Source: Manduca sexta (Eukaryota > Arthropoda > Insecta > Lepidoptera > Sphingidae). From it: 64,000 nt of DNA. A model generated the notes under the pieces. It was not told the origin of the DNA. It ran no database searches and was given only the letters and a program-made list of their open reading frames with translations. Shown piece by piece: positions 1 to 57,879 of this stretch (its first letter is position 1; each line of letters opens with the position of its first letter). Made by a program: the position numbers and the translations under genes. The stretch is from contig NC_051134.1 of assembly GCF_014839805.1 (NCBI RefSeq), positions 13,237,170 through 13,301,169 on the forward strand, read 5' to 3'.

Positions 1-1590
1 GGAGGCGCGGCCGGCGTGCTGCGCCTGGCGGTGTCGGTAGTTGTTTCCACTAGTGAGTGTGTCGGGTGGTGTGTCCTCAGTGCGTGTACTCACGTGCGTG
101 TTGAGCGCGACGGAGGCGCGGCCGGCGTGCTGCGCCTGGCGGTGTCGGTAGTTGTTTCCACTAGTGAGTGTCTCGGTGGTGTGTCCTCAGTGCGTGTACT
201 CACGTGCGTGTTGAGCGCGACGGAGGCGCGGCCGGCGTGCTGCGCCTGGCGGTGTCGGTAGTTGTTTCCACTAGTGAGTGTGTCGGGTGGTGTGTCCTCA
301 GTGCGTGTACTCACGTGCGTGTTGAGCGCGACGGAGGCGCGGCCGGCGTGCTGCGCCTGGCGGTGTCGGTAGTTGTTTCCACTAGTGAGTGTGTCGGGTG
401 GTGTGTCCTCAGTGCGTGTACTCACGTGCGTGTTGAGCGCGACGGAGGCGCGGCCGGCGTGCTGCGCCTGGCGGTGTCGGTAGTTGTTTCCACTAGTGAG
501 TGTGTCGGGTGGTGTGTCCTCAGTGCGTGTACTCACGTGCGTGTTGAGCGCGACGGAGGCGCGGCCGGCGTGCTGCGCCTGGCGGTGTCGGTAGTTGTTT
601 CCACTAGTGAGTGTGTCGGGTGGTGTGTCCTCAGTGCGTGTACTCACGTGCGTGTTGAGCGCGACGGAGGCGCGGCCGGCGTGCTGCGCCTGGCGGTGTC
701 GGTAGTTGTTTCCACTAGTGAGTGTGTCGGGTGGTGTGTCCTCAGTGCGTGTACTCACGTGCGTGTTGAGCGCGACGGAGGCGCGGTCGGCGTGCTGCGC
801 CTGGCGGTGTCGGTAGTTGTTTCCACTAGTGAGTGTGTCGGGTGGTGTGTCCTCAGTGCGTGTACTCACGTGCGTGTTGAGCGCGACGGAGGCGCGGCCG
901 GCGTGCTGCGCCTGGCGGTGTCGGTAGTTGTTTCCACTAGTGAGTGTGTCGGGTGGTGTGTCCTCAGTGCGTGTACTCACGTGCGTGTTGAGCGCGACGG
1001 AGGCGCGGCCGGCGTGCTGCGCCTGGCGGTGTCGGTAGTTGTTTCCACTAGTGAGTGTGTCGGGTGGTGTGTCCTCAGTGCGTGTACTCACGTGCGTGTT
1101 GAGCGCGACGGAGGCGCGGCCGGCGTGCTGCGCCTGGCGGTGTCGGTAGTTGTTTCCACTAGTGAGTGTGTCGGGTGGTGTGTCCTCAGTGCGTGTACTC
1201 ACGTGCGTGTTGAGCGCGACGGAGGCGCGGCCGGCGTGCTGCGCCTGGCGGTGTCGGTAGTTGTTTCCACTAGTGAGTGTGTCGGGTGGTGTGTCCTCAG
1301 TGCGTGTACTCACGTGCGTGTTGAGCGCGACGGAGGCGCGGCCGGCGTGCTGCGCCTGGCGGTGTCGGTAGTTGTTTCCACTAGTGAGTGTGTCGGGTGG
1401 TGTGTCCTCAGTGCGTGTACTCACGTGCGTGTTGAGCGCGACGGAGGCGCGGCCGGCGTGCTGCGCCTGGCGGTGTCGGTAGTTGTTTCCACTAGTGAGT
1501 GTGTCGGGTGGTGTGTCCTCAGTGCGTGTACTCACGTGCGTGTTGAGCGCGACGGAGGCGCGGCCGGCGTGCTGCGCCTGGCGGTGCCGG
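1..1590 (-). repeat. 111-bp minisatellite array 1, spanning the exon 13 donor of DIS3
   Basis: Head-to-tail array of a 111-bp GC-rich unit that continues left of the window. Read on the minus strand, each unit is 60 bp identical or nearly identical to the end of DIS3 exon 13 (encoding [20 protein letters not shown]) followed by 51 bp of intron beginning GTGAGT. Fourteen donor sites are present, the exon-proximal one at 1535-1530 and the last at 93-88. Units are nearly identical; exceptions are a substitution near 787 (Gly to Asp if translated) and a 1-bp shortening near 168-178 that makes one unit 110 bp. 111 is a multiple of 3, so the array is open in the DIS3 frame as far as the short unit. 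It is not a CRISPR: there are no unique spacers. Confidence 0.95.
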
Positions 1591-1704
1591 TAGTTGAGCG
1601 CGTCGCACTGCGCCTCCCCGCGGCGCGCGTCCACAAGCGCGGCGTGCGTGGTGTCGCAGCCGAGCGCCGCCGCCAGCAGGCGGTGCACCATCACGTCCGC
1701 GTAC
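1536..1704 (-). CDS. Dis3: DIS3 exon 13, ending in the minisatellite
   Basis: Follows GGTTGCAG. Encodes [17 protein letters not shown] and ends RASVALNTH at the first of many identical GTGAGT donors, matching the family segment RASVAFHTQ. The last 60 bp are the exonic part of the 111-bp minisatellite, so the downstream exon boundary is formally ambiguous: any of the repeated donors could be used in frame. Confidence 0.88.
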
Positions 1705-4700
1705 CTGCAACCAAACACATGCTTACGATTCAAACCCATTAAGGACCGATCGTTCAAATCAAAAACCAATCAAAATAACCCATGTGTAAACATGTTAAAC
1801 GAGGTAACCGATGACATAACTTACTTCATCCATTTACGAACGAATGGAAAAGTGATTGAAAAAAATTATCGATTTCAACAATGAATAGGTAAAACCGTAC
1901 AATCGTTTGCAAAAAAAACACTACACAGTAGCAGACCCTGTAACAGCTTTGATAAATTGAACATTTTTACTAACCTACGTATAGGCGAAGTGAAGTGTGT
2001 GTATATAGGACACGCGAGCCCGTAGTGGTAGTACTCGTCTTGTGAGACGGAGCCGCTGACGAAGTACACCGCTTGCTGCATGCATCGCGTCGCCATTATG
2101 CGCAGCAACGTGTTGAAGTACGGACGGCCCGGAATTACGGCTTCATCCAGTGATTTAGAGAATGCTTTGTTCGTTGACACGTCTATCTCGAAGCCCTGCG
2201 AATTGTCGAGTTTTGGTGGAGTTAATTTTTTTATTCCTGAGGGACATATCTAGAACTGTGCTTTATAATAATGTTGAGTAGACAATATTTTCCCCTCGTA
2301 TAAGAAAAGACTACCGATAGTAATAGTAAGCGCAGTATAGTTGAGATATATAAGTGATCTTAAGTGTTATTCAGAAATAATAAGAATTATTTTTATAATT
2401 TTTTTTGATGTATCAATAATGCAACTGTTCACCTACGTGATAAAAAAAAACATTATTAAAAACGAAAACATAATAATATTTACGAGGAAATAATATATAA
2501 TTAGAATATGAAATCATTGAGTACATAACAATTATATGTATGTATTATAAACCATCCAAGTGCTGGCGTTTTGTATTTATTGTACGCAGTACGACACTGC
2601 TGTTAGGTACCAGGTTCAAATTCTGGATCGGTGATATTAAGTACTAGACGTGAATTTAAATTCTTTACTTGCCAATACTTGTTTAGTTACCCAGATTAAA
2701 GGTGAAACAAAATGTATGAAAATGGACCGTGAGGTATCGCCTTAACTTCAGTTGTAACGAATGATTTCATTCGAAAACATGGAAGGGAACCTTTAAAATA
2801 GAAGACTCAAATACCATTCATTCAGTCACTCATTCATTCACTCGCCCCAAGAGTTGAGGAATGTTAAAACCGCGATAAAATCCGAAAAATAGTTTTATTT
2901 CGAGCAATGTTAAAGTTTACAAAATTTGTTGCAAGATATATTATAGCTATGGTAAACAATCATTACCTACTAGCAATTTGAAACAATATCTAGTATCTCA
3001 GGATGCAGAGTTTTATAATACAAACTAGCTTTTGCCCGCGGCTCCGCCCGCGTTATAAAGTTTTTCGGGCTAAAGTTTTCCGTTATAAAAGTCACGCTGT
3101 ATAATTTCCTGGGAGCCTATGTTCTTCACAGGGTCTCAAACTGTCTCCATACCAAATGTCATCTTAATACGTTGGATAGTTTTTGAGTTTAACACGTTCA
3201 GGCAGACAGATGCAGCGGGGGACTTTTGTTTATAATATATTTTGTAGAACTCTTTAAGAGGAACAATCCCGTCATACATTATTGTTGAATTACTTTAACC
3301 GTTTACGCAGCGCACGCAGCGGATGCTCTAAAAACTAATTAATACATTTTCCCCGTTTTTGCAACATGTTTCATTACTGCTACGCTCCTATCGGTCATAG
3401 CGTGATGATATATAGCCTATAGCACTCCAGGAACAAAGGTCTATCCAACACAAAAATATTTTTCAGGTCAAACCGGTTGTTCCTGAGATTAGCCATTACT
3501 GCTCCGCTCCTATTAGTCATAGCGTGATGATATATAGCCTATAGCACTCCACAAATAAAGGGCTATTCAACACAAAAATAATTTTTCAGTTCGAACCGGT
3601 AGTTCCTGAGATTAGCTACCACTGCTCCGCTCCCATTGGGTATAGCGTGATGATATATAGCCTATAGCACTCCATGACCCAAGGGCTATTTAACACAAAA
3701 ATAATTTTTCAATTTGAACCGGTAGCTCCTGAGATTAGCTATTACTGCTCCGCTCCCATTGGGTATAGCGTGATGATATATAGCCTATAGCACTCCACGA
3801 CCAAAGGGCTATCCAACACACAAAAGAATTTTTCAATTTGAACCGGTAGTTCCTGAGATTAGCTATTACTGCTCCGCTCCCATTGGGTATAGCGTGATGA
3901 TATATAGCCTATAGCACTCCACGACCAAAGGGCTATCCAACACAAAAAGAATTTTTCAATTTGAACCGGTAGTTCCTGAGATTAGCTATTACTGCTCCGC
4001 TCCCATTGGGTATAGCGTGATGATATATAGCCTATAGCACTCCACGAACATAGGGCTATCCAACGCAAAAAGAATTTTTCAGTTTGGACCGGTAGTTCCT
4101 GAGATTAGCGCGTTCAAACAAACAAACAAACAAACAAACTAACAAACTCTTCAGCTTTATATAATAGTATAGATTATAAGGGGATGGAACACACTTGGAC
4201 AAAATGGTCCGCGGATTGCACATTTGCCTACCTTCAGAGGCTAAGGCGTCAAATCCGTTTTGTTTTGTTTACATTTTTGTCACAGAAAATAGCTGTAAAA
4301 CGACTTAAGTGTTTGTTTAGTTTCAAGCAGACGGCGAAAATGTTATGTTAGGCTATTTTTCATTGTTATTTCCGATACCCTATTTTCACTGGAAAACAGT
4401 GGCGAATTGTGTAGTTGTCCAAAAGGGAACCCCGCACAATTAGATATTAATATGTATAAGAGCGGTCTGCAAATCGTTCTCACGATAATTAAATTGTACA
4501 TAAAGGAAAGCCGGCAAGAGTTGTATGGAATCTTCGCCACTGCTGGAAAATCGCTTTAAGATATAATTGTACGGGAAACCGGCGATACCCTAGTTGGAAG
4601 TGGAACGGACTGCCGAGACGAAAGTCCGCAGGTTCAAAACACAAGGGCACGCACCTCTGACTTCTCTAAAACTATGTGTGCATTCTTTGTGAATTATCGC

Positions 4701-7700: not shown

Positions 7701-10700
7701 TACTTTTCAATTTATCTGTTTTAACTTAATTTATAAAGAAAATAGGTACCAATGTATAGTTTGAAGTGCACTCCTCATATATTATAATTGTTGTAGAACC
7801 TCTTGTTCTAATATAATTTAAAAATTAAAAACATAAATGTCTTATGTCAACTCGTGTAAAACAAGTGCTCAATGATATAAAAACATTCTCTGAATTTATC
7901 CGTATTTTTCATTTCACGTATAGTATTCCATTATTTTTACTACAATAATCTTATTCAAAATCTCCACAACTGATTACAAAAACAATAATAAATCACTTTC
8001 AAAATAAGCTGAAACCTTTATCGTCTGTTCTGACAGACGTTTGACATCATCTATATAGAACTACATAATCAAATCAGTTTCATCTTTAATCCCCTGTAGT
8101 ACTTGCACTTAGCAACATCGATGAACGAATATTAATATTTCGTATCCCTAAGTATTCCACCACCATCCCATCCCTAAATATTCCACTAATACTGTAGATG
8201 TGGTCCTGAAGTTCGAGAATTTTAGGAAGTTTATAAACCAATTTGGCTTATGTCATTGATTACATTTCGATGATTGGTTAAATATAAAAACGTATTACAT
8301 AAAGTTAATACATGGGCTACTTTTAATGTCGATAACGCGCTCACATAAGTCAATGGCACATAATATATTAGTGAATGAACTGAAATCTTATAGTTTTTAT
8401 ATAAAATTTTCTGATAAAATTGTACAACATCCGACTGTATTAATTAACAATTGATTTTTATAATGAACTTTGCGCAACGGACGTAGCTTCCGCAATTTTT
8501 ATCTCATCTTATATTTTGTTTCCGACCGGACAGTGACGAACAGACATATCCGGCCATTAAACGGCGCATGTTTCGACATGTTCACGAGTATATGAATCAC
8601 AACTCTAAACGCAAAAATGTGTATTTTTATATCTACTATAAGAGGAATACGAAGATTTTATAAGGCTTATACCACAGACCGGCAAAAACCGAGTTGGAAA
8701 GAAGGCTTACATTCCGTACGATGTGTGAGACTAAGTGTGAGTTAAGACTCTAACAACTCCTTTCCTATGTCTGTTTCCTTTCAAATAGACACACCATTTA
8801 CTTTAGAAGCGTCAGCGCGTTTATGAATTTATTCATATTGTAGACGAGGATATTATGGGCAGTAGAAATATTGGCGTATAGGCTACCGATATCGGAAGGA
8901 TCATTTACAAACTTATGCTATAAAAAAAAACTTTGCCCCCATAGTATAATAGAAACCACACGATATAATAACTTTGCTATATAGGGACACATAAATATCT
9001 TGCCTGTTGCCTAGCCGCTTTGAGGAAGGTGTCGAAGTTGGCAGGTGGGGGTGCGGGATGCCTCCTCAGGAGTGCACACTGCGGGAAGTCCTGCAACAAC
9101 TTCTCCGCCACGCTGATGTTGGCCAGCAACATGAACTCTTCCACCATCGAGTTCGTGTCTACCAGTTTCTTCGCCTGCACTTCTATAGGGTCATGCGTTT
9201 CGGAATCCACCTGTAATAATAAAACATTAAAAAAATATATATTTATAAAAATTCCAGGACGGGCAAAAGTGATATTGGATTTTTTACTCATTATAATCAG
9301 CACGGAGTCTGGAATTTCTGCCCAATATTTTAATATACTCGCCCCTATCATGGGGCGGAACACACAGGCGAAAAGAGTTGCCCTGTTTGCACCTCTGCTA
9401 TCCCTCGTAGCAAAAAATGATGTGACTATTTATATGTGCATCTATTAAAATAATAACAATTGTACTGCACGTGTTTTATTTTAATTTAGCACAATATATT
9501 CTAACATTTCGGACTAGGGACATCCAAGTCGCAACTTTGATGATAGATCTAATGATAGATTATATGGGCTAATACTATACCGGTCAACACTGTTTCTAAC
9601 AAAATTTGCCCAAAACAGGATGGCGTCACACATGGATAAAAGGATATATAGAAAAGAAAGAAAAGATATTTATTGTCACATCTGGTGAATACAATACATA
9701 ATAATACAAATGCAGCGCTACACCCCTGCGATGTGACAATTAGGTGGCCAGCTCAGTGCATATATACTATAACATGGCATAGTGCACAAATTTAAAACTT
9801 ATGATTCATTGTTATCACAATACATTATTGTATAAATCATTCGTAACAGAAGCAAAAAAATTACAAGAGTAATACGATAAGTCCCGACGCTATTATCTCG
9901 TAAGTGATGACGCATTACGTCCACGGAAATCGGTAATCGCAATTTTTGTTCCAATGCAATGAATAATAACTGATAATTAATTATCTGAGTTATTTATTGT
10001 GTAAATTAACATAAGTAATTAGACACAATTCGCGACCTTGGTATTTTAATCTATAGGAAATTAAAATTTGATACGTATATATTACACAGTATTTCCAAGG
10101 CATTTAAAATTGCATTGAGTTTGTTATACAATAGTAAAGATTTAAAAAAACAAAGGTAATACAATGCTCACATGCATCCTATCTTAGAATTTTACATATT
10201 AATTCCATACCATACCATTAATTTTATAATTTTCGTGTCAATAAATATATAAAATAAAAAAATAAATAAGCTCACGCCTGTACCCTGTTTGGTTAGGCAG
10301 GAACATACTAGTGCACACAAACTTCGCCTAGATCATCTAGGTCCAATATACTCCCCTACAATGTGAGAAAGGTCGATTTTGTCAACACCATACAAATAAA
10401 TAATTCCACGCCACGGTAGTGTTCAAATCATAACTCAATATTTTTTGGTTTTCCATTTAGACGTCGAAAAGATGACAGCAAGAGTACATTTGTTCTAGTA
10501 ACAATAAACGAGAGAATCCTAGATCACCAATTTTTAGATTAGAATTAGAAAAACCCAAACTATTTATCGCCACTAAAAAAATGTTTACTGGGCCCATATT
10601 CTGTATGGTAGTGTAAACGCGTAACGCGGCCGTGTCATGTTATCTTCGAGAAATGTGCGTGGAATGGTATTCTGTAAGCCAAATTTCTATAGTACTAAAC

Positions 10701-13700
10701 ATGATGCGTTGTGTTACGTGCTTGTTACGCACTGTCAAAATAACGTGCGGGATAGAGAATAAGGCCCCTGTTGCCAATTGACAACAGTCGATAAACTATC
10801 ATTTAGGCTGTCAGAAAGAATCTGATAAATTATAATTTACCGCCGGATTGGAGACAAAAAAATTATCAAAATATAAATTCAATGGATACCTTTGAGTAGT
10901 TTTCGCGAAAGTCGACTTTTGCAAGTTTTCTCTCTAATCTAAGCTTCGATTAAGATTGTTTATCTATGAGACCCACCTGGAACCTGATCTCTGGCGAGGC
11001 GAGGAGCAGGGCGCCCTGGTCGAGCCGCTTGCGCTTGAGTCGCTTGGCGAGTGCGTTGAGCGTGCGCAGGGACGTGGCCACCGCGTCCGCGCGGGACGAG
11101 TCGTCGATCGCGAGCTGCGCCTCCTCGTACGTCATCGCCGCAGCTGACTGGACACGTTCACATATAACTATTACTTTACTTTGTAGTTAGACATTGAAAT
11201 AAAAAAAAGTAGTAGAGGAGGCCCGTGCTCAGCAGTGAGCAAGTATATAATACAGGGCTGATATTATTTTTTATATATTATTATTTATTTATTTATTTAA
11301 ATTTCGATTATTGAAATAAAACCAATCTTGATGATTTTACCATTATTTTTTTTATTTCTAGTCACGAGGATGTGAAGGTTTCTAATCCTTCATCCAATCA
11401 CTCTATGACCGCTTTATTAATAATACTTCGCCTTAATATTTTTATATTAAAACTTAAAATTTTCCTTTCTACAAAGGGCATATCAATAATTTCCTACATC
11501 TCTCTATCTATGTATTTAATTAATTTCTTCGTGGGTTCATGAGATTAAACTGGTCGACCTTCATAGTTCGGGGTACTACAATGCGAGCCACTGTTGATCC
11601 CGTCGTACAGAAGTTACAATACACGAGTATGAGGGCGGGATAGTTTCGACTATTGTTTATTTGAATATGAATAAGAGATCCATTACATATGTTTTTTAAA
11701 TTTCACAAGTTAATCCCTTTCGCTTATATTTTTAAAATATGTGGAGTAATGCAAGATAAAATACACATAGTACTATTAAAACAAATATTTAAAGCTTATT
11801 TAGAATCCTAATAATCCGATATCAATCTATGTCGATGACGTAAAAAGCGGTTTAAAACATCGATAATATAGATATAAGGAATAGCCTTGGAAAGAATGGA
11901 AATTATCGCGACCTTACATAATGATTTTCCGAAACCTGAATACAATCAGTTTTGCTTACCGAGGTCAGTGCTAAACCGATAAGTTTTATCTAAACATCAT
12001 TTGCAAGTGATAATGCCAAAAATGTTAAGACAGCATACGAAATATAACTATCGTTTTATTTTGCAAATTGGTCATAACTTTTTTAGTTATTTTTTTTACT
12101 TTGAATAACGAGACGAGCTTGCCGTTCGCCTGATGGCAAGCGATACGACCGCCCATAAACAGTAGAAACACCATCCAACGTGTCAATGTTGTGTTCCGGT
12201 TTGAAGGACATTGTAGCCAGTAACTACTGGACATGATAAGACTTAACATCTCACGTCTCAGGATAGCGAGCGCAGTGGAATATCAAACAATACTTTGTAA
12301 TTCATGGTGTTGGATGGTGTTTCTACTGTTCATCATGCAAACGGCCAGCTAGTGTCGTCATTCAAAGCAGAAAAAAAAACCTTTTCGCTAGAATGTTTCC
12401 TATACTTTTTTTCATAGGGTGAAACGATTGTATAGAGGCATCTTGTCTAATGCTCCAGCACTTTCAAAGAAATAATACCGCCGTCCACAAATACCCGCAA
12501 TCACTAGAGAAACTTCAATGCGTATTTTTTTTTCATTTAAGCATTTTTACTTTTTAGGACAGGACATATTATAATCATAAGTGGCTTTGTAATTATTTTC
12601 ATGACTACCGAAGTACATAAAAATATAGCTAAGCTTACCTTTATGACGCTTTTGTGGAACCTCGTGGCCAAAATGTTAGCATTTTCATCAATCTCCCACA
12701 CGCAGGAGAAAGCAAGTCTCTCTTCACCGCCGCGCAACGAACACAAGTTGGAACTCAACAGATCTAACGGAAACATAAAAAAAACACAAATTTTAACCGA
12801 CTTCAAAAAAAGGAGGAGGTTCTCAATTCGACGTATATTTTTTTTAATGTTTGATACTTTATGACACCGGTCATTTATAAAACGATTTTTAAAATTATTT
12901 TTTTATTTTTACACAAAATTGTACAATAATTCACGAACAAATATATTTATTAATATTCAGTAGTGGACAGTTTTAAACAGGAAAAAAAGAAAAATACGAA
13001 CAAAATAATAAATTGCATAAAAAAAATGTAGTCATAACTTAACTTTTTTTTGTAACTATTCATTGTCAATCATTGCCAGACACGTGATCGAATACAATGC
13101 GAAAACAACTTATTTGTCATTACAATATTTGTTGCTAACCGCACGTCAGCTATATTTTATTTATATGTTATTCTGTATGACTGATTTTGGAGGTCAATTA
13201 TGTAATTAGTAACATTGTATTGTAGGATCCATTAAAAACTTCATGAAATTTTAAACTAGATGAATCCATAGGGTTTTTCTATTCAGTATCAGTCTAAAAA
13301 CTAGAATTTTTATCTGATAGGACTATAGGCGAAATGTGGGTGCACTCCTTGCGCCTCTGCCCACACCTTCAGGAAAAAAGCAACAATATGCCTGCGTGGA
13401 CGTGTGCCTGTGGGAGTGTGTGCCAGCGCTCACGCACGTGTTTCTGTATATTATCAATTAATAAATAAAAATGATCTTGATATACATATTGTCACGCCAC
13501 TGTGAATTAAATTCATTATTTATTTATACCTACCTGACTAGCCGCTACCGGCTACGAGTCAGCGCAATAACCGAGCAAAGTGACCCTCAAACGGATCCAA
13601 CCCTAGATGTTTTTTTTTCTAAACCTAATTGAATATATTATCTTCAAAGGTTGGTTTAATTTTACGTTACAAATTACCTGGAACCATATCGATCCTTCGA

Positions 13701-16700
13701 TCTACCAAGTACACGGTGGTGGACCTGGCCGCGGCCTCCTTGTCGAGCGGCGTGTCGGGGCGCACGAAGTACGTCACGTCCGCGATGTGCACGCCCACCT
13801 CGAACCTCTTGAGCCCGGCGCGCGTCGCGCCCGCCAGCGCGCGCGCGTGCAGCGCGTCGTCGATGTCCGTGCAGCCGGGCGGGTCCACGGAACACACGCA
13901 GGTCGAACGGAGGTCTACTCGTTTTTTTATTTCCTAGAATAAAATTGTTATTAAAATTGGTAATCATGGAACAAAGCTAAGTGAAATGAGAAGGCACTGC
14001 CTCTGCACACTTCGCACCTAACATAACACTTCAATGGTAAAAGCATCATGATAAAACAAGTAAGATATGTTCTTAAAAATCAAAAATATTATTTACACCT
14101 AGATAAAGACATGTCATGGTACCGAAAAAATTATGTTCTCTAAAACTTTCCAAAAAATAAAGAGAAAAAATTGTCATTCCTTTATTTATTTTTAAACTAT
14201 TCATTGTCAATCATTGCCAGACACGTGATTGTATAGAACGCGAAATTTTTTTTGGCATTTCAATTCTTGTTGCCAACCGCATCACAGCTATATTTTTTAT
14301 GGTCATATTTAAAAAAAATATGACAAGCTATTGTATTGTCTTATTAGTTCTAAAGGTCAATAACATTATATTGTAATATTAAACGACCTTCACAAAACAT
14401 ATTATTTAATGTCTTACGATGAATCCAGACATACGAGTATAATAGGATATTTATCGTGTGTATATAAAGATTTGCAAAGATGTTCATATGGTCAGAGAGG
14501 CCTTAAACCATTTACGGGGACAAATCCGTATTCGCAATGGAATCGGTGCTCTATTGAATGGACACCTTAGTGACTAAGAAAGTCTAGTGGATAGGTGTGA
14601 ACAAAATATGAGATTTTTAACTCTTTTTCCTAAATTGCTATCAAAGCTGTCCCTTGTTTATATGCCCCCGTCGAGAGAATAGAGCCTCTGACTATATGAA
14701 CTTTGTACAGATGTTTATTATAAATCAACTCATAAGCCTATAAGGGACAAATGCTTAAAAATCGGCAAAATACGAAATTTCAGTCTTTACCCGGAAATAT
14801 AGGAAACAAAATTATTTTGTGACATGTTTTTTTTCGAGGATCGAGTCAGTTTTAAAATATTTTTATTCATTTGAACATATTTGTAATAACCAATACAATT
14901 CTAATCGTATTTAAAAACAGATATCAACTCGCTTACCATTAAATTTATTAAAAACCGTGCCATATTGATATGTATACGAAAATGCAAACGTTGCGTGTAT
15001 GAGTACTTGTCAATCGTAGGTCGATCGATATACGGGACAGTCTGACCCGCAGGGACATTTCAAAATGAGCCTAAAATACGGCACGTCCCGGAAAATACGG
15101 GACGTCTGGCAACACTAAATATAGGTTAATTTTTTCTGGGATAAATGATTAATGGGTCGCGCGCAAAAATATCAATATAGTTACACATCAATAACCGGTT
15201 TCTAGTCACGTCTAAGTTCTAAATCTTTACTCGTGTCTATGAATATATTCATTAAATCAATCAAGTCATGACATGTTACACGTGTCGATCAAAATATATG
15301 TTTGGAACTATCAAAACACGTACCTACACGGATAATCTATCTAAGTATGCATATTATATTGCTTATTATTTTACCAATATTATAAATTCTAAACTTTGTG
15401 AAAATATGAAAACGATGAAAAAACTTAAAGGACTTGGATAAAATTTGACACACTAGTTGGACCATGGAACAATGGATTTTTTAAAATGAGATTCTAAAAA
15501 TGAATGCCGTTGGCGTAGTGTTTTAGGGACTTTTGCTGTGGAAACGCGGGCGCATGGAACCGCAACCAACACTTAGTCTTATACAATTAAGAGTAAAAAA
15601 AAATATTTATTTACCGCACATATTATATATTGAAAATTTACCGCACCCATTTCAATGGCGGCCTTAACTAGTGCGGGGCCATGACCCCCGTCCCCCTGGC
15701 TACGCCTCTGTTAACTTGAGTTTATCAACGGATGACGTGGATCGATGATTATGATCTAACAGTGATTATGATCTGACAGACAGCATCCAAATATAAATAG
15801 GTCTTAATATATCAAAGTCAAAACGAATTGTGTAAAAGTCGACCTGCATAAAGAAAACGTCCCATCATAAGCAATTGGACTTAAAAAATATCGCCTTCAA
15901 GAACATAGCATAGGCGTACCCAGTCCAGGTAAAAAGTGAGTCGAGATACAAAAAAACACATAGATTTGTTAATAATTAGATGCCTCAACATTTTGGGGTG
16001 CTAAATTCTTATGAGTACAACCTCTATTCCCCACCCCAGGTGTGCCTACGATAGGGACACGAATATCAAAAACAATGCTTACCTCTTCGGGTATCGTCCA
16101 GTTATCTGGAGGCAGACAAGACAGCACAGCTTCGCTGAATCGCGCATGAGGTACATCATGTTCTAGAAGGATTACTTCATTCTCCGCGTTCTTGTCACCT
16201 TTACGTAAATCAATTAACGTTATTAATTGTTTCAAGTATATTTGCAAACCTAGTTAATGTGTTATTTGTATGGGCGACCCTAGCTCTGAACTTATGGGGG
16301 GCAATTTTAAACTTTTGCTCTAGGGGGGACAAAGCAAAAATTTCATATATGTGGTCCTAATACATTAATATATTACACAAAAACGTATATGGAATATAAA
16401 GTACTTATGTGGAATCCCCGGGTGCTAGCTCCCCGCCCCCTTCCCCCCGGTGCGCTCGGTGCTGCGTGTATAGTAGTGCGGAGTGAGTAACGTGTATTGT
16501 GTGGCAGTTAGTGCGCGAGTGTACCGACCTATGGGTCCGAGCGCGCGCACGAAGTGTCCGAGCGGGTAGCGGCTGTTGCGCGGCCACGAGTCGAGCGCGA
16601 CGAGGATGCGCTGCGCCGCGAGCGCGTCGCTCTGCCGCGTCTCGATGCGCACGCGCGGGATGCGCTTCTCCGCCGGCGTGAACAGGTGACGCGTCGCGCC

Positions 16701-19700
16701 TTCACAATCAACAACTCGATCACAGTTTTATCATACAGGTGTGGCATATATGCGTTTGCTGAACTTTAAATTAAAAATAATTTTGAAATGCTGCCAATTG
16801 GGAACAATGAACGCTGAATAAAATAAATATGTTAACATATGAATGGAAAGTGACTGCCTCGGTGGCGTAGTTGTATTGCACGTCCGGTACAATAGCGCTC
16901 TGAGGTCATGGGTTCGAATCCCGGGTCGGGCAAAGTGATATTTGGGTTTTTCTGCTCAGTATCAGCCCGGAGTCTGGAATTTGTGCCCGATATGGCGATA
17001 GGCTCGCCCCCTATCACATCATGGGACGGAACATACTTGGCGAAAAGTGGGTGCCCTAGTTGCGCCTCTGCATACCCCTTCGGGGATAAAAATGCGTGAT
17101 GTTATGTATGTATGTATGTATGAATGGAAAGAAGGGCATAAACTATAAAGGAATTAAGTAGATGCGAATTTTCTTACAGCAATTGTATTTAAATATTTCT
17201 TAGCAAAGAACATTGAAATGACACGGGTTATAGGAGGTTAAATTGCCTGCATCTTCTTTTACACATATGTAATTTACTCATACTTCCATGGTGTTAAGAG
17301 AAGAAAAATTACCAGGTAACCGGCTCGGCATCAAAATACCGCAATATTGCCTCCATTTCCTTCTAATAATGCCAACCACTTTCCCTGTGGGAGTGATTTC
17401 TTCCTTCGCCTTATCAGCTTTCACCGAGTTTAAAAGAAGGGTCTCCTCCTCCAAAAAATCTCCAGGGTCATCAGCCTTGTCTTCTAAAACAATGTCACTA
17501 GGCCTACGCCATTCTTCTTCTGGTAGAAGTTCAATGGCAACTACATCACCATCTACAGCTCTGTTGATACCTATGTGCCCTTGTAGTAGGATCTGGTGAG
17601 ATTGTTTAAACACATGACTATATTGTTGTATTTCTAACAATAAATCTAATCTTATGTGAATGAAACCTACTATAATAAATAATACATTGTAGCGAAGAAA
17701 GCGTTGAAGAAATTTATCTACAACATTGTAAACATTATGAAGCATTCTGGCAAAAAGTAATAAGTTTTAAATAATTTATCTGCACCTGTACCACATCTAT
17801 CAATGTAATAAACACAACCTTATTGATATACCCTAGATATCATCTTAATCAATGAGAACAAAATGAAAACAATAAATAATTTACTCACAGGCTTATCAAA
17901 TCCATTGATGTTTGCAGTGCCCTCCAAGAAATTATCGCGGGACGCATGAAAGGTACCCTGATAAAGCTTGCCGTTCCTTATACCTTCGTGTACTTGTGTG
18001 GGTGTCAAGTGGGCTGGGTACAGAGCGTCCTTTGAACAACTTTCCGGTATAACATTCTTTGATAACTTATCACTGAGTCCAACAAACCCTGATACATTTT
18101 CTATATAATCTTTGACTGTAAATAAATCATACTACAATTAAAATACTTGAGCTCGCTCGTTACTCCTAAGATGTAAATATAGATCAATTCACTTACATTG
18201 ACAGTTAAACTAAACATGTAAGCTATTTGTAATGATCATAGTTCAGTGTTCATTTGACAAAGGTTAAGCCCATCAGAAAAGCAACCCCGGGAAGGTATTA
18301 TTTATCCTGTGAATTGAACCCAGAATAACATCAATACTTGCACAGACAATACTAGAATTGATTTATGTATTATGAAATTCGCTGATAAAATTTAATTTCC
18401 ACTGAATTGTTTAAAAATATAAAAAATAATTAAAAAGTTACATTATTAATAAGTGTAAAAAATCTTGTATTTAAATTGTACAATATTTTAAACAAATTCA
18501 AGTACCATTGCAACACACAATGCCTTCATTTTGAGCAATATTTCTGTTTTTTTCATCATCCGTCAGCAACACTATCCTCGGAGACTGTCCAACAACACTG
18601 TTTATATTCAAGTGCGTCTCATACCATGCAGAGGCCCGCCGAATAGCCCTGTCGTTTCTATCATTCTGTTTCTCGCCAGGATTTCGTTCAATGTAAGTGT
18701 CTCTTAAATAGAATTTAAAAGGGATAAAGTAGCAATAACAACAAATAAGTACTTAATTTCCAAATATACTGAAACAAAAATAATTTTGGGATGCAGTTTT
18801 ATGAATTAATCTTATAATAAAAATCTTAATCAAACAAAATGTTTTTAGTGGACTTGCAATGAATATTCAGTTACTATTTGGTATTCGGCTTCATGGGCTA
18901 TTTTTCTCCTATTTAATAAAATATAGAATACATGTTGTAGGCACATAATTGGTAAAATAAGATTTATTAATTTTCTTATAAAATTTTACAAATCATCAAA
19001 GTTAAAGAACATAATCAGCTTCCGTCTTATCTATACTATGATATAAAACCGAAGAGTTTGTTTGTATTTATGTTTATATTTGACCAAGGAGGCCTAAAAT
19101 ATTCCCAGAATTACAATCATATTTTTACCCAAGAATGTGATAAACCATTAGAGAAAATTGTATGCACATAATATCATTCAATTAAAAAAAACTGTTATAT
19201 TCTATAACAGTTTGGATAATAAATATTAAAAAACTCACTTATGGTGTTCATTGACAAATGAATAAAACTTCCTATTCTTATTGCTTATTATTTCTAACAA
19301 TCTCTGAAACACTGCTGTATTCCTGTGTTTCACTTCCTCCAATACAGTTTGCAGAATTATAACATTTTTCAATGCATCTTCTTCAAGAACATCAATTTGA
19401 TGTAGAACTACATTTGTGTCCAATATCAAATAGTGAGGGTAGTCAAACAATGCGCAGATGGATGTTGGTTCAGACTCCAAAACTAATTCATCGTCTTTAT
19501 GAGGGCAAGTGTTGCAAGCGGCAGAACCACACAGTAAATCATCCCGCAAGTAATGTTCCCTCACAATCTGCAAAAATATTGTTTGACACTGAATGCTAGT
19601 CCCGTTAGTATGCATGATAATCACATCATGGCAGTCTGCGTTTTTAATTTGTCTCTCAATCAATCACAAATATCAAAATTAATTAACCTACAAGTCACAA

Positions 19701-20229
19701 TTTTTGGGATATTCTAAGGGAGCTGGTGTTTTTTCTGTTCATTCTATCTTTAACATGTTGGTGTATAAAATGGCATAAATTACATGAAATAGTTATTAAG
19801 TAGTTTGTACAGTTAGTTCATGGTCCTAAAACAGAAACATAATAGTGAGCAAATTAGAACAACTCTCAAGGATTACAAAACATCAACATAATAGTATTAT
19901 TGCTTATCATAAATAAAAGTTAAAATTAATTAAAAGTAGAGACCGTGATGTCCCCACTTTTTAGTTACTGAGAACATTTTAAATTCTAAAATGTATGAAA
20001 AGATTTGCAGTAGCACAGTTCAACCACCCAATCAAACACTAAACGAAATAGAATATATGTATTCATAACATTCGCTAATGGTAGAAAATACGAAGTAAAT
20101 AAGAGCAAGTAGGTAATAATAGTACAAGTAAAACTTCGGTCTTAACTTTAAAATAGTTATAAAATATAACCTTACTTTTATTATGTTTCCGCGCTTTGTT
20201 TTGGTTAAAAACGTCTTTGTTGTCCACAT
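1536..20229 (-). CDS. Dis3: DIS3/RRP44 exosome exoribonuclease, copy 1 (3' end outside window)
   Basis: Catalytic subunit of the RNA exosome, combining endonuclease and processive 3'-5' exonuclease activities. Join of exons on the minus strand: 20229-20176, 19567-19239, 18702-18506, 18115-17889, 17592-17313, 16699-16529, 16198-16083, 13933-13678, 12763-12639, 11147-10977, 9210-9004, 2195-1975, 1704-1536. These give 841 codons with consistent phases and no stops; the family is about 950-1000 residues. Seen: CR3 cysteines C31, C36, C39; PIN domain with DTNVVLH (D68), NDRND (D145) and TDD (D176-177); cold-shock region about 200-440; RNB domain with [15 protein letters not shown] (473-487); [12 protein letters not shown] near 780-790. 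The S1 domain and C-terminus are missing because the window ends. Start chosen by homology (KTFLTKT) and an adenine at -3. All splice sites are GT-AG except intron 11 (GC-AG). Exons were assigned by eye against remembered family members. Confidence 0.95.
1975..2195 (-). CDS. Dis3: DIS3 exon 12 (RNB domain, HFTSPIRR)
   Basis: Follows ATTCGCAG. Encodes [35 protein letters not shown] and [15 protein letters not shown], the RNA-channel end of the RNB domain. Ends with two bases of the next codon at donor GTTAGT. Confidence 0.95.
2641..4175. mobile_element. composite insertion in DIS3 intron 11, with 121-bp internal tandem repeats
   Basis: Absent from the matching place in copy 2 (near 58440), where a SINE remnant is uninterrupted. 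It begins with a segment also found at 63795-63898 and contains CTTTTGCCCGCGGCTCCGCC (from about 3030), typical of a dispersed lepidopteran repeat that recurs inverted at 48905-49405. From about 3365 to 4110 there are six imperfect units of about 121 bp, each with ACTGCTCCGCTCC, GTGATGATATATAGCC and TAGTTCCTGAGATTAGC. It ends in an (AAAC)n-like tract near 4120. No coding capacity. Confidence 0.7.
4337..4866 (+). mobile_element. tRNA-headed SINE-like element with a GGGCTGATATTATT tail
   Basis: Ends AGGCCGGTGCCCAGCAGTGG ... ACAGGGCTGATATTATT. The middle has pol III-like boxes (TAGTTGGAAGTGG; GGTTCAAAAC). The same element with the same flanks is at 59050-59655 in copy 2, so the insertion predates the split of the copies. 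A third copy is at 31740-32262. Confidence 0.7.
4866..5737 (+). mobile_element. dispersed repeat insertion with a GATA-rich tail (copy 1 only)
   Basis: Starts ACTAGCTTCCGCCCGCAGCT and ends in an imperfect (GATA)n tract (about 5703-5740). At the equivalent position in copy 2 (about 59655) the flanks are joined directly, giving a filled and an empty site. An inverted relative lies at 38735-39230. No intact ORF. Confidence 0.7.
6055..6340 (+). mobile_element. dispersed repeat (GTTGACCCGACAGACGTTGT) with AT microsatellite end
   Basis: Starts CTAGTTGACCCGACAGACG and includes CCAGCCGTTCACGCGTGATGG before an (AT)n stretch at about 6297-6320. A truncated relative is at 60834-60900 in copy 2, at a different intronic site, so the two insertions are independent. 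Confidence 0.6.
6354..6642 (+). mobile_element. tRNA-derived SINE with target-site duplication
   Basis: Head TGCCTCGGTGGCGTAGTTG (A box) and GGTTCGAATCCCGGGTCGGG (B box), body with GCCCGATATGGCGATAGGC, tail (TATG)n. Flanked by ATCTTAAATGTAT at 6341-6353 and again at 6643-6655, read as the target-site duplication. Within DIS3 intron 11 of copy 1 and absent from copy 2. Confidence 0.85.
6656..9003. other. rest of DIS3 intron 11, including a conserved GC-rich patch
   Basis: No gene seen. Around 7385-7510 there is a GC-rich stretch (GACGTGTGCGGGGCCGCGGG) in otherwise AT-rich intron, matched at 60110-60230 in copy 2. The remainder aligns with copy 2 (7930-9003 with 60450-61570) apart from small indels. 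Confidence 0.6.
9004..9210 (-). CDS. Dis3: DIS3 exon 11 (RNB domain, [12 protein letters not shown])
   Basis: Follows TTATTACAG. Encodes [12 protein letters not shown] and [18 protein letters not shown], one of the most conserved RNB stretches. Ends ...AARQQ in phase 0 at a GC donor (CAG|GCAAGA). Confidence 0.95.
9262..9422 (+). mobile_element. degraded tRNA-derived SINE fragment (intron 10)
   Basis: Retains GACGGGCAAAAGTGATATTG, GGAGTCTGGAATTTCTGCCC and the GCACCTCTGC... end of the SINE at 6354-6642, without the tRNA head. Shared with copy 2 (61815-61978), so older than the duplication or haplotype split. Confidence 0.7.
10590..10768. mobile_element. short MITE-like element, GGGCC...GGCCC ends (copy 1 only)
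   Basis: About 180 bp in DIS3 intron 10. Left end GGGCCCATATTCTGTAT and right end (reverse complement) GGGGCCTTATTCTCTAT form imperfect inverted repeats. In copy 2 the sequence runs TTTACTGTTGCC without it (near 63230), an empty site suggesting a 2-bp duplication (CT). Confidence 0.7.
10977..11147 (-). CDS. Dis3: DIS3 exon 10 (RNB domain)
   Basis: Follows GTGTCCAG. Encodes [20 protein letters not shown] and [20 protein letters not shown]. Exactly 57 codons in phase 0, donor GTGGGT. The paralogous exon at 63921-64000 differs by Arg to Gln in ALAK(R/Q)LKRKR. Confidence 0.94.
11205..11275 (+). mobile_element. SINE tail fragment (GGGCTGATATTATT)
   Basis: Only the 3' tail of the element at 4337-4866: GTAGAGGAGGCCCGTGCTCA to CAGGGCTGATATTATT. 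In DIS3 intron 9, just upstream (in transcription) of exon 10. Confidence 0.7.
12100..12360. repeat. dispersed repeat (GCCGTTCGCCTGATGGCAAG), partly palindromic
   Basis: Contains GCGATACGACCGCCCATAAA and AGTAGAAACACCATCCAAC, then an inverted version (GTTGGATGGTGTTTCTACTG) near 12310. Relatives at 21085-21262 and 44275-44455. A common lepidopteran interspersed type; class not determined. Confidence 0.6.
12639..12763 (-). CDS. Dis3: DIS3 exon 9 (RNB domain)
   Basis: Follows TTTCCGTTAG. Encodes [20 protein letters not shown] and [10 protein letters not shown]. Phase 0 end at GTAAGC. A dispersed repeat fragment (AACCGACTTCAAAAAAAGGA, from about 12795) lies some 30 bp upstream of the acceptor. 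Confidence 0.93.
13055..13267. repeat. direct repeat flanking DIS3 exon 8, downstream member
   Basis: Starts AACTATTCATTGTCAATCAT and matches 14195-14428 over about 200 bp, with the same order of landmarks (CAGACACGTGAT, GTTGC(T/C)AACCGCA, GATGAATCCA). The pair brackets exon 8. Confidence 0.6.
13272..13385 (+). mobile_element. degraded tRNA-derived SINE fragment (intron 8)
   Basis: Headless remnant with TTTTTCTATTCAGTATCAGT and TGCGCCTCTGCCCACACCTTC, corresponding to the body and 3' part of the SINE at 6354-6642. Confidence 0.6.
13678..13933 (-). CDS. Dis3: DIS3 exon 8 (RNB active-site aspartates)
   Basis: Follows TTTTATTCTAG. Encodes [15 protein letters not shown], whose aspartates coordinate the catalytic magnesium ions in RNB nucleases, then [16 protein letters not shown] and [15 protein letters not shown]. 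Phase 1 end at GTAATT. Strongly GC-rich. Confidence 0.95.
14195..14428. repeat. direct repeat flanking DIS3 exon 8, upstream member
   Basis: Partner of 13055-13267, offset by about 1.14 kb. Diverged by substitutions and small indels. Confidence 0.6.
14429..16082. other. DIS3 intron 7, remainder
   Basis: AT-rich intronic DNA with no gene recognised. Some short GC-richer runs (for example ATGACCCCCGTCCCCCTGGC near 15681) resemble eroded repeats; none was identified. Confidence 0.5.
16083..16198 (-). CDS. Dis3: DIS3 exon 7
   Basis: Encodes [18 protein letters not shown] and [19 protein letters not shown], leading into the RNB domain. Ends in phase 0 at GTAAGC. Confidence 0.93.
16529..16699 (-). 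CDS. Dis3: DIS3 exon 6 (CSD2)
   Basis: Encodes [20 protein letters not shown] and [18 protein letters not shown], both highly conserved in DIS3. The acceptor has a weak pyrimidine tract (TGTGAAG). The donor is an atypical GTCGGT, but the phase joins exactly to exon 7. Much more GC-rich than its surroundings. Confidence 0.9.
   Translation of the reverse strand, partial: ARRVTCSRRRRSASRACASRRGRATRSRRSASSSRSTRGRATAATRSDTSCARSDP
16851..17121 (+). mobile_element. full-length tRNA-derived SINE in DIS3 intron 5, with target-site duplication
   Basis: Same family as 6354-6642 and nearly identical to it, including the A and B boxes and the (TATG)n tail. GAATGGAAAG is at 16841-16850 and again at 17122-17131, a 10-bp target-site duplication. 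Antisense to DIS3. The intact duplication and close similarity suggest a recent insertion. Confidence 0.9.
17313..17592 (-). CDS. Dis3: DIS3 exon 5 (cold-shock domains)
   Basis: Follows CTCACCAG. Encodes [20 protein letters not shown] and, near the end, [16 protein letters not shown], typical of the CSD1-CSD2 region. Phase 1 end at donor GTAATT. Confidence 0.93.
17889..18115 (-). CDS. Dis3: DIS3 exon 4 (PIN to CSD1 linker, start of CSD1)
   Basis: Follows TTTACAG. Encodes [11 protein letters not shown] and then the cold-shock segment [19 protein letters not shown]. Ends in phase 0 at GTGAGT. Confidence 0.93.
18506..18702 (-). CDS. Dis3: DIS3 exon 3 (rest of PIN domain)
   Basis: Follows acceptor TTTAAG. 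Encodes [21 protein letters not shown] and LLTDDEKN, which hold the remaining acidic PIN residues. Ends in phase 1 at donor GTACTT. Confidence 0.9.
19239..19567 (-). CDS. Dis3: DIS3 exon 2 (CR3 motif and start of PIN domain)
   Basis: Begins [10 protein letters not shown] after TTTTTGCAG. Contains the C-x4-C-x2-C CR3 motif and the first PIN aspartate in [14 protein letters not shown]. Ends FVNEHH plus two bases, at donor GTGAGT. Confidence 0.95.
20176..20229 (-). CDS. Dis3: DIS3 exon 1 (start codon, 18 codons)
   Basis: Encodes [18 protein letters not shown], matching the family N-terminus (KTFLxKT). Ends in phase 0 at donor GTAAGG (20175-20170). Confidence 0.9.
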
Positions 20230-21750: not shown

Positions 21751-22033
21751 TGCAGTCACATCTTTGGGGTGTTAGAGCAAAGATAACATTAGTAGTGGTC
21801 GGCGTGCGCTCGCCGCATGTTCATATTGACGATAAAAACACACACTACTCGAAACATCAAGTCGCTTTTGAGTTCGTTTTGCGTATAAAATTTTCAATCT
21901 AATATGAATTTCGATGACAGTTCCGCAAATAATATTGCTGTTTTGAAAATAATGATAAATAATAAAATATATTTTTGTGAACAATATTAAATAAACATTA
22001 GTGAATACAAAAAGTACAGTGAAATACAATAAT

Positions 22034-53307: not shown

Positions 53308-53388
53308 TAGTTTCCGATATTTTAATGTTGATAAAATTTTATGTGAATAATTTAAATAATGCACTTATCTGTAATTTAAAAGTATACA

Positions 53389-56300
53389 GGTAGTTGTTTC
53401 CACTAGTGAGTGTGTCGGGTGGTGCGTCCTCAGTGCGTGTACTCACGTGCGTGTTGAGCGCGACGGAGGCGCGGCCGGCGTGCTGCGCCTGGCGGTGGCG
53501 GTAGTTGTTTCCACTAGTGAGTGTGTCGGGTGGTGCGTCCTCAGTGCGTGTACTCACGTGCGTGTTGAGCGCGACGGAGGCGCGGACGGCGATCTGCGCC
53601 TGGCGGTGGCGGTAGTTGTTTCCACTAGTGAGTGTGTCGGGTGGTGCGTCCTCAGTGCGTGTACTCACGTGCGTGTTGAGCGCGACGGAGGCGCGGCCGG
53701 CGTGCTGCGCCTGGCGGTGGCGGTAGTTGTTTCCACTAGTGAGTGTGTCGGGTGGTGCGTCCTCAGTGCGTGTACTCACGTGCGTGTTGAGCGCGACGGA
53801 GGCGCGGCCGGCGTGCTGCGCCTGGCGGTGGCGGTAGTTGTTTCCACTAGTGAGTGTGTCGGGTGGTGCGTCCTCAGTGCGTGTACTCACGTGCGTGTTG
53901 AGCGCGACGGAGGCGCGGCCGGCGTGCTGCGCCTGGCGGTGGCGGTAGTTGTTTCCACTAGTGAGTGTGTCGGGTGGTGCGTGCCTCAGTGCGTGTACTC
54001 ACGTGCGTGTTGAGCGCGACGGAGGCGCGGCCGGCGTGCTGCGCCTGGCGGTGGCGGTAGTTGTTTCCACTAGTGAGTGTGTCGGGTGGTGCGTCCTCAG
54101 TGCGTGTACTCACGTGCGTGTTGAGCGCGACGGAGGCGCGGCCGGCGTGCTGCGCCTGGCGGTGGCGGTAGTTGTTTCCACTAGTGAGTGTGTCGGGTGG
54201 TGCGTCCTCAGTGCGTGTACTCACGTGCGTGTTGAGCGCGACGGAGGCGCGGCCGGCGTGCTGCGCCTGGCGGTGGCGGTAGTTGTTTCCACTAGTGAGT
54301 GTGTCGGGTGGTGCGTCCTCAGTGCGTGTACTCACGTGCGTGTTGAGCGCGACGGAGGCGCGGCCGGCGTGCTGCGCCTGGCGGTGGCGGTAGTTGTTTC
54401 CACTAGTGAGTGTGTCGGGTGGTGCGTCCTCAGTGCGTGTACTCACGTGCGTGTTGAGCGCGACGGAGGCGCGGCCGGCGTGCTGCCTGGCGGTGGCGGT
54501 AGTTGTTTCCACTAGTGAGTGTGTCGGGTGGTGCGTCCTCAGTGCGTGTACTCACGTGCGTGTTGAGCGCGACGGAGGCGCGGCCGGCGTGCTGCGCCTG
54601 GCGGTGGCGGTAGTTGTTTCCACTAGTGAGTGTGTCGGGTGGTGCGTCCTCAGTGCGTGTACTCACGTGCGTGTTGAGCGCGACGGAGGCGCGGCCGGCG
54701 TGCTGCGCCTGGCGGTGGCGGTAGTTGTTTCCACTAGTGAGTGTGTCGGGTGGTGCGTCCTCAGTGCGTGTACTCACGTGCGTGTTGAGCGCGACGGAGG
54801 CGCGGCCGGCGTGTTGCGCCTGGCGGTGGCGGTAGTTGTTTCCACTAGTGAGTGTGTCGGGTGGTGCGTCCTCAGTGCGTGTACTCACGTGCGTGTTGAG
54901 CGCGACGGAGGCGCGGCCGGCGTGCTGCGCCTGGCGGTGGCGGTAGTTGTTTCCACTAGTGAGTGTGTCGGGTGGTGCGTCCTCAGTGCGTGTACTCACG
55001 TGCGTGTTGAGCGCGACGGAGGCGCGGCCGGCGTGCTGCGCCTGGCGGTGGCGGTAGTTGTTTCCACTAGTGAGTGTGTCGGGTGGTGCGTCCTCAGTGC
55101 GTGTACTCACGTGCGTGTTGAGCGCGACGGAGGCGCGGCCGGCGTGCTGCGCCTGGCGGTGGCGGTAGTTGTTTCCACTAGTGAGTGTGTCGGGTGGTGC
55201 GTCCTCAGTGCGTGTACTCACGTGCGTGTTGAGCGCGACGGAGGCGCGGCCGGCGTGCTGCGCCTGGCGGTGGCGGTAGTTGTTTCCACTAGTGAGTGTG
55301 TCGGGTGGTGCGTCCTCAGTGCGTGTACTCACGTGCGTGTTGAGCGCGACGGAGGCGCGGCCGGCGTGCTGCGCCTGGCGGTGGCGGTAGTTGTTTCCAC
55401 TAGTGAGTGTGTCGGGTGGTGCGTCCTCAGTGCGTGTACTCACGTGCGTGTTGAGCGCGACGGAGGCGCGGCCGGCGTGCTGCGCCTGGCGGTGGCGGTA
55501 GTTGTTTCCACTAGTGAGTGTGTCGGGTGGTGCGTCCTCAGTGCGTGTACTCACGTGCGTGTTGAGCGCGACGGAGGCGCGGCCGGCGTGCTGCGCCTGG
55601 CGGTGGCGGTAGTTGTTTCCACTAGTGAGTGTGTCGGGTGGTGCGTCCTCAGTGCGTGTACTCACGTGCGTGTTGAGCGCGACGGAGGCGCGGCCGGCGT
55701 GCTGCGCCTGGCGGTGGCGGTAGTTGTTTCCACTAGTGAGTGTGTCGGGTGGTGCGTCCTCAGTGCGTGTACTCACGTGCGTGTTGAGCGCGACGGAGGC
55801 GCGGCCGGCGTGCTGCGCCTGGCGGTGGCGGTAGTTGTTTCCACTAGTGAGTGTGTCGGGTGGTGCGTCCTCAGTGCGTGTACTCACGTGCGTGTTGAGC
55901 GCGACGGAGGCGCGGCCGGCGTGCTGCGCCTGGCGGTGGCGGTAGTTGTTTCCACTAGTGAGTGTGTCGGGTGGTGCGTCCTCAGTGCGTGTACTCACGT
56001 GCGTGTTGAGCGCGACGGAGGCGCGGCCGGCGTGCTGCGCCTGGCGGTGGCGGTAGTTGTTTCCACTAGTGAGTGTGTCGGGTGGTGCGTCCTCAGTGCG
56101 TGTACTCACGTGCGTGTTGAGCGCGACGGAGGCGCGGCCGGCGTGCTGCGCCTGGCGGTGGCGGTAGTTGTTTCCACTAGTGAGTGTGTCGGGTGGTGCG
56201 TCCTCAGTGCGTGTACTCACGTGCGTGTTGAGCGCGACGGAGGCGCGGCCGGCGTGCTGCGCCTGGCGGTGGCGGTAGTTGTTTCCACTAGTGAGTGTGT

Positions 56301-57280
56301 CGGGTGGTGCGTCCTCAGTGCGTGTACTCACGTGCGTGTTGAGCGCGACGGAGGCGCGGCCGGCGTGCTGCGCCTGGCGGTGGCGGTAGTTGTTTCCACT
56401 AGTGAGTGTGTCGGGTGGTGCGTCCTCAGTGCGTGTACTCACGTGCGTGTTGAGCGCGACGGAGGCGCGGCCGGCGTGCTGCGCCTGGCGGTGGCGGTAG
56501 TTGTTTCCACTAGTGAGTGTGTCGGGTGGTGCGTCCTCAGTGCGTGTACTCACGTGCGTGTTGAGCGCGACGGAGGCGCGGCCGGCGTGCTGCGCCTGGC
56601 GGTGGCGGTAGTTGTTTCCACTAGTGAGTGTGTCGGGTGGTGCGTCCTCAGTGCGTGTACTCACGTGCGTGTTGAGCGCGACGGAGGCGCGGCCGGCGTG
56701 CTGCGCCTGGCGGTGGCGGTAGTTGTTTCCACTAGTGAGTGTGTCGGGTGGTGCGTCCTCAGTGCGTGTACTCACGTGCGTGTTGAGCGCGACGGAGGCG
56801 CGGCCGGCGTGCTGCGCCTGGCGGTGGCGGTAGTTGTTTCCACTAGTGAGTGTGTCGGGTGGTGCGTCCTCAGTGCGTGTACTCACGTGCGTGTTGAGCG
56901 CGACGGAGGCGCGGCCGGCGTGCTGCGCCTGGCGGTGGCGGTAGTTGTTTCCACTAGTGAGTGTGTCGGGTGGTGCGTCCTCAGTGCGTGTACTCACGTG
57001 CGTGTTGAGCGCGACGGAGGCGCGGCCGGCGTGCTGCGCCTGGCGGTGGCGGTAGTTGTTTCCACTAGTGAGTGTGTCGGGTGGTGCGTCCTCAGTGCGT
57101 GTACTCACGTGCGTGTTGAGCGCGACGGAGGCGCGGCCGGCGTGCTGCGCCTGGCGGTGGCGGTAGTTGTTTCCACTAGTGAGTGTGTCGGGTGGTGCGT
57201 CCTCAGTGCGTGTACTCACGTGCGTGTTGAGCGCGACGGAGGCGCGGCCGGCGTGCTGCGCCTGGCGGTGGCGGTAGTTG
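53389..57280 (-). repeat. 111-bp minisatellite array 2, about 35 units
   Basis: Same unit as array 1, with 35 GTGAGT donors from 57219 (exon-proximal) to 53446-53441. Every unit carries GGTGCGTCCTC and GGTGGCGGTAG, where array 1 has GGTGTGTCCTC and GGTGTCGGTAG. Irregular units: a 2-bp deletion near 54486, a 1-bp insertion near 53981, substitutions at about 53586-53592 and 54814. The left end joins unrelated AT-rich DNA at 53389 (TATACAG|GTAGTTG). Confidence 0.95.
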
Positions 57281-57388
57281 AGCGCGTCGCACTGCGCCTC
57301 CCCGCGGCGCGCGTCGACGAGCGCGGCGTGCGTGGAGTCGCAGCCAAGCGCCGCCGCCAGCAGGCGGTGCACCATCACGTCCGCGTAC
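57220..57388 (-). CDS. Dis3: DIS3 copy 2 exon 13
   Basis: [20 protein letters not shown] ... RASVALNTH, ending at the first of 35 donors. 169 bp as in copy 1, acceptor GGTTGCAG. Confidence 0.85.
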
Positions 57389-57658: not shown

Positions 57659-57879
57659 CTACGTATAGGCGAAGTGAAATGCGTGTATATAGGACACGCG
57701 AGCCCGTAGTGGTAATACTCGTCTTGTGAGACGGAGCCGCTGACGAAGTACACCGCTTGCTGCATGCACCGCGTCGCCATTATGCGCAGCAACGTGTTGA
57801 AGTACGGACGGCCCGGAATTACGGCTTCGTCCAGGGATTTGGAGAATGCTTTGTTCGTTGACACGTCTATCTCGAAGCC
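57659..57879 (-). CDS. Dis3: DIS3 copy 2 exon 12
   Basis: 221 bp, as in copy 1; the translation matches copy 1 exon 12 as far as I can read. Acceptor ATTCGCAG, donor GTTAGT. Confidence 0.9.

Follow-up and report, generated by a model that had tools for sequence, protein, structure and literature searches.

A minisatellite of repeated 5' splice sites in DIS3 of Manduca sexta and a tandem duplication with a breakpoint in the repeats

Introduction

The repeats in intron 7 of the human F7 gene each carry a donor-like (5' splice site-like) sequence. Normally, only the most upstream donor of the F7 repeats is used, according to the available part of PMC6627357; the available part of PMC3778950 holds nothing on these repeats. 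Here, we describe two arrays of repeated donors in DIS3 (RRP44) of Manduca sexta. The window, i.e. the whole stretch of 64,000 nucleotides that was analysed, covers positions 13,237,170–13,301,169 of NC_051134.1 in a single 470-Mb assembly (GCF_014839805.1). Positions are window-relative: those left of the window are counted down from 0 (G000:C20:13237169) to −1 and so on, and those above 64,000 lie in the flanking sequence to its right.

As far as the available parts of the sources go, the Manduca arrays resemble F7 intron 7 in that the repeats lie at the donor. F7 uses the most upstream donor, and the protein model P0001 would agree with such use in Manduca. If the F7 rule applies in the same way, the Manduca array would be silent. 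The agreement of downstream donors with the true donor, which characterizes the F7 type, was complete in the window (49/49 identical). The F7 units are 37 bp long and would shift the reading frame, whereas the Manduca units are 111 bp long and keep the frame, with 23 copies in one array and 35 in the other; the gene is an insect DIS3. Unlike F7, Manduca also has a segmental-duplication breakpoint inside an array. Tandem duplication of splice-signal-bearing sequence inside a gene is shared with ATP2A1, fission yeast (a 24-bp segment duplicated several times, cited in the available part of PMC4974935) and potato RdRp. In these cases, within the same limits of the sources, the duplication makes a new intron, whereas in Manduca copies were added to an existing donor and the intron kept its position. 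The initial annotation of the window had presented a donor array of this size in DIS3 as new. No DIS3 donor array was indeed found in the titles and abstract openings listed from the open-access literature on donor repeats, DIS3 or Manduca repeats, but the class was already known from F7. New is that a breakpoint of the ~58-kb duplication falls within the array.

Results and Discussion

The gene carrying the first array (array A) is on the minus strand, with its start codon at 20229 and its exons following leftwards (Table 1). Its exon-interior residues were identical (818/818) to the NCBI protein 'exosome complex exonuclease RRP44 [Manduca sexta]' (P0001) and, judged by this match, the gene (copy A) is DIS3/RRP44. 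The profiles PIN_4, Rrp44_CSD1, OB_Dis3, CSD2 and RNB matched P0001 above the cut-off, and Rrp44_S1 scored 21 bits, slightly below its cut-off of 23. Array A starts at the exon–intron junction of exon 13, and each unit includes the exon end and the donor, CAC/GTGAGTAC (the slash marks the junction). For the part in the window, Tandem Repeats Finder (TRF) gave a period of 111 bp with 14.4 copies and 99% matches; 14 donors (at 1535, 1424 ... 93) were spaced by 111 bp save for one 110-bp unit. The full array extends from 1596 to −991 (G000:C20:13236178) in 23.1 copies. It holds 25 donors (GTGAGTACACG) in 23 units because 14 bp of the donor region are duplicated within two of the units (nested duplication), and 17 of the 23 units have one identical sequence. 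The TRF array, the donor positions and the identity with P0001 bear out the initial annotation, which had described a donor-spanning minisatellite at the end of DIS3 exon 13 with 14 donors in the window and a continuation to the left. Its placement of the site between the RNB and S1 domains was also correct: the junction follows residue 841 of P0001, between RNB (463–799) and S1 (851–914). Exon 14 of copy A starts at −1209, and intron 13 (2744 bp) is mostly array. The S1 exons begin 1.2 kb past the left edge of the window, with tblastn matches of the S1 part of P0001 at −1206 to −1349 and −1642 to −1899.

Phased on the word CAACTA, the unit consists of 61 exonic and 50 intronic bases; the division into 60 and 51 bp proposed at first was right within the ambiguity of this word. 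The 6-bp word is common to exon 13 (CTCAACTACC) and to intron 13 after the last unit (AAACAACTATTC), which suggests that the first unit duplication may have occurred via slippage or repair at microhomology. The last unit of array A is 113 bp long and ends in ACTTGTGCGGAAACAACTATTC, where the rest of the array reads ACTAGTGGAAACAACTACC. The GC content was 0.65 in the unit, compared with 0.37 in the window. A 32-mer around the donor occurred 49 times in the window (14 + 35) without a mismatch (mean of 100 shuffles: 0.00). A dispersed satellite was rejected, since 56 of at least 59 genome matches to the unit sat at the two arrays on the same contig (C20) and the three others were 36-bp matches. 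A known RNA family was likewise rejected, with no match in the window at gathering score.

The second array (array B) and the tandem duplication, both missed by the initial annotation, lie further right. Array B occupies the corresponding junction, that of exon 13, in a second DIS3 gene (copy B), and 31 of its 35 units have one identical sequence. Block A, from array A to 53388, is collinear with block B, from 53389 to ~111.7 kb, with 74–95% identity in collinear pieces of at least 200 bp. The final 81 bp ahead of array B (53308–53388, where the query ended) match 111616–111694 at 90%. Right after 53388/111694 the sequences diverge, with array B in mid-unit on one side and other sequence on the other. 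A weaker copy (83%) of the stretch before array B lies at 112347–112418, and the block end could be at 112418 instead of 111694. With either block end, the left breakpoint of the ~58-kb tandem duplication is inside the minisatellite.

All 13 exons were found in copy B, with splice-site dinucleotides retained and no stops in the 818 interior codons compared (edge codons were left out). The copies differed by 51 synonymous and 14 non-synonymous changes (dS 0.096, dN 0.0075, ratio 0.078), affecting 13 of the 818 residues; over exons 10 (part) to 13, the synonymous divergence was 0.136. Were copy B neutral, simple arithmetic would give ~85 non-synonymous changes on its branch, as against 14 in all, and 32.0 in exons 10 (part) to 13, where 2 were seen. 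From this deficit we infer that copy B was constrained by purifying selection for most of its history, the part after the loss of S1 depending on a loss in one step. Polarizing the 13 residues with 27 chosen lepidopteran models was a weak branch-specific test, with three residues derived in copy B, one derived in copy A and nine unclear.

A tblastn search with P0001 (144 kb, E ≤ 0.001) found the S1 exons (14–15) beside copy A only, and not in copy B. Copy B might end in either of two ways. Splicing from the first donor to a candidate acceptor at 53368 would give the tail LNTH-ISALFKLFT followed by a stop, with ATTAAA at 53326. Alternatively, the array would be read through, giving a frame of 985 amino acids that begins with exon 13 and stops at 54432. 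A newly evolved acceptor past array B was rejected because a third copy of the stretch (112340–112418) has the same ACAG. No copy B protein was among the best 120 of 3441 database hits (lengths of about 461–1466), nor among the best 120 of 187 or the best 120 of 2063 (lengths of about 153–488).

Since both copies lie on one contig of one assembly, an expanded repeat or an uncollapsed second haplotype could in principle have produced this picture, but we consider such an assembly artefact highly improbable. The two arrays have different fixed bases, a transposon-like element in block A faces an empty site in block B, and block B holds a second open Patched-like gene. The synonymous divergence, over the 818 codons as well as over exons 10 (part) to 13, and the identity of the collinear pieces also argue against an artefact, and on these two grounds an allelic haplotig was rejected. 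Divergence of this size exceeds that expected of alleles. The element (~1.3 kb, about 52008–53311, inverted ends AAGGTCAGTCGGGGCAAGTGCGCC ... GGCGCACTTCCCCCGACTCACCTT) was found in block A only. Its empty site in block B lies near 111616/111617, so that the element probably arrived after the duplication.

The unit consensuses of arrays A and B differ at 2/111 sites, compared with 25/264 sites in the neighbouring intron 12 (10.5 expected, P 0.0013). We read this low divergence as exchange between the arrays, with constraint as the alternative. Under the latter, the array would be kept for a role in splicing, in which serial donors might raise U1 occupancy and the efficiency of intron 13 splicing, or would be otherwise constrained. 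The similarity of the consensuses and the absence of mismatches in the donor 32-mer across 49 units are in line with such a role. However, unequal exchange between arrays ~53 kb apart accounts for the same similarity, and more than half of the sites (61/111) encode protein in exon 13 proper. When the comparison is restricted to the 50 intronic sites, there is one difference against 4.7 expected (P 0.043). There are few variants overall, so the invariant donor block says little. RNA of two units folded no better than shuffles (z 0.52), which led us to reject a structured RNA and also speaks against a splicing role, which we regard as improbable.

Each unit of 111 bp comprises 37 codons without a stop, as initially annotated, and this had led to the proposal that distal donors lengthen the protein by multiples of 37 residues. 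The absence of stops holds for the single unit; in array A as a whole, it holds only through donor 13, since the reading frame changes at the 110-bp unit and a stop is reached at 92. Donors 1–13 are in frame, donors 14–19 are out of frame, and donors 20–25 are back in frame by offset but lie past that stop. In array B, donors 1–25 are in frame without a stop and the frame is lost after donor 25. Three indels within the arrays are not multiples of three (−1, −2 and +1; one in array A, two in array B). Together with the two nested 14-bp duplications in array A, they give no indication that the array is selected to be readable, and this explanation was rejected. The lengthening itself was not borne out by P0001, the only Manduca DIS3 protein model seen, which joins LNTH straight to ILFRHK without a 37-residue insert and thus uses the first donor. 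The exon 14 acceptor at −1209 suits this join in phase 0. Appreciable use of distal donors, yielding DIS3 isoforms with one or more additional blocks of 37 residues between RNB and S1, seems unlikely to us. The identity of all 49 window donors, the in-frame, stop-free runs at the start of both arrays and a gene model of Achroia grisella with one extra in-frame 40-residue copy at the same junction would fit such isoforms. They are opposed by the missing insert in P0001, by the loss of frame past donor 13 and the three indels, and by the F7 precedent, which, in the available part of its source, favours the most upstream donor.

The initial annotation had suggested searching DIS3 of related species for the unit. 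Relatives are known here from protein gene models of DIS3, with exon ends placed by the Manduca exons. We screened 152 fetched DIS3 hits of at least 850 amino acids for a 12-mer that recurs at a distance of 30 residues or more. Seven models held such a repeat: 6/36 named Lepidoptera and 1/116 others (a leafhopper; some of the 116 may be Lepidoptera). Achroia grisella (P0010) has 40 extra in-frame residues ending in SVALNTH in exon 13, at the same junction as the Manduca arrays. Arctia plantaginis (P0039) has KAARQQ eight times at the end of exon 11, in a unit that is also read in other frames and may be ~76 bp long, and Phthorimaea operculella (P0002) has five copies of 35 residues ending in GFEKP at the end of exon 4. 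In Achroia and Arctia, the repeated peptide appears to run past the exon end as if into the intron. As in Manduca, the repeats of these three models end at a DIS3 exon end, but they are seen in protein models only and have other units, mostly in other exons. For the latter reasons, they are probably independent. Two further repeats resemble duplications of a whole exon: one of 57 residues in Papilio xuthus (exon 10; a second model of this species, P0023, was not among the seven) and one of 69 residues in P. machaon (exon 11). The repeat of the Maniola model lies within the C-terminal tail. In Mythimna separata, P0042 and P0182 have consecutive locus tags, come from contigs of equal length and share 48 identical residues up to the end of exon 11, perhaps another exon-end duplication that splits the gene model.

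Taken as a whole, we consider the following history likely. A small segment across the 5' splice site of DIS3 intron 13 would have undergone tandem duplication, probably at CAACTA, and subsequent expansion to a minisatellite, which today takes up nearly the whole of intron 13. The spliceosome would take the most upstream donor, that of exon 13 proper, and the other units would leave with the intron, so that the array may be tolerated as unstable DNA rather than as coding sequence. Breakage inside the array would then have created copy B, a second DIS3 gene truncated before the S1 exons. Four points weigh against this history. The similarity of the two consensuses requires exchange between the arrays or some constraint in addition. 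The loss of S1 in copy B may be later than the duplication, if a larger duplication was followed by a deletion. P0001 is a computed model and compatible with minor isoforms from other donors, and the Achroia grisella model contains one extra unit at the same junction.

Table 1. Features of the two DIS3 copies, the arrays and the duplication junction (window-relative positions).
Feature	Position	Strand	Remarks
Array A, part in window	1..1596	-	TRF; 111-bp units of exon 13 end and intron 13 start
GT of first (most upstream) intron 13 donor, copy A	1534..1535	-	CAC/GTGAGTAC; implied by P0001
Exon 13, copy A	1536..1704	-	169 bp; ends in the 61-bp exonic portion of the repeat unit
Exon 12, copy A	1975..2195	-	
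Exon 11, copy A	9004-9210	-	
Exons 1-10, copy A	10977..20229	-	outer limits, from start codon
Candidate 3' splice site past array B	53368..53370	-	putative; AATTACAG/ATAAGT, first exonic base 53368
Duplication junction	53388..53389	.	block end joined to middle of array unit
Array B	53389..57280	-	35 units (TRF 35.1 copies) of the 111-bp kind at copy B exon 13 junction
Exon 13, copy B	57220..57388	-	
Exon 12, copy B	57659..57879	-	
Exon 11, copy B	61571-61777	-	
Exons 1-10, copy B	63.9 to 79.8 kb	-	mostly right of window

Exon 11 of both DIS3 copies ends at a GC donor, CAACAG/GCAAGA. Intron 11 of copy A contains a 123-bp tandem repeat (6 copies, 3373–4109), which is probably transposon-derived. 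The stretch 3024–3493 beside this repeat matches 48947–49400 at 88%. A Patched/NPC1-like protein is encoded in an open frame of 955 amino acids (21995–24862, plus strand) with Sterol-sensing, Patched and NPC1_MLD matches. Its second open copy in block B (81532–84396) is 98.4% identical over 955 amino acids.

Conclusions

The anatomy of the locus comprises two arrays with identical donors, a tandem duplication with its breakpoint in the array and open copy B exons. The arrays, which differ in copy number between the paralogues of this one assembly (23 and 35 units), offer a natural experiment on the choice that the spliceosome makes when dozens of identical 5' splice sites lie in series in a core RNA-decay gene. 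As the unit keeps the frame, a wrong donor near the array start would lengthen the protein rather than break the frame. More tentatively, and with considerable doubt, lepidopteran DIS3 exon ends might recurrently seed donor-spanning minisatellites. In Manduca, the breakage of one of these may have led to a selected DIS3 without S1, with PIN and RNB and a new tail (ISALFKLFT via a ready-made acceptor, or a long repeat read from the array). The most interesting part lies beyond the array that was initially annotated: an exon-end minisatellite acted as a breakpoint, probably in making a new truncated gene, and this constrained second copy raises the question of whether DIS3 works without its S1 domain.
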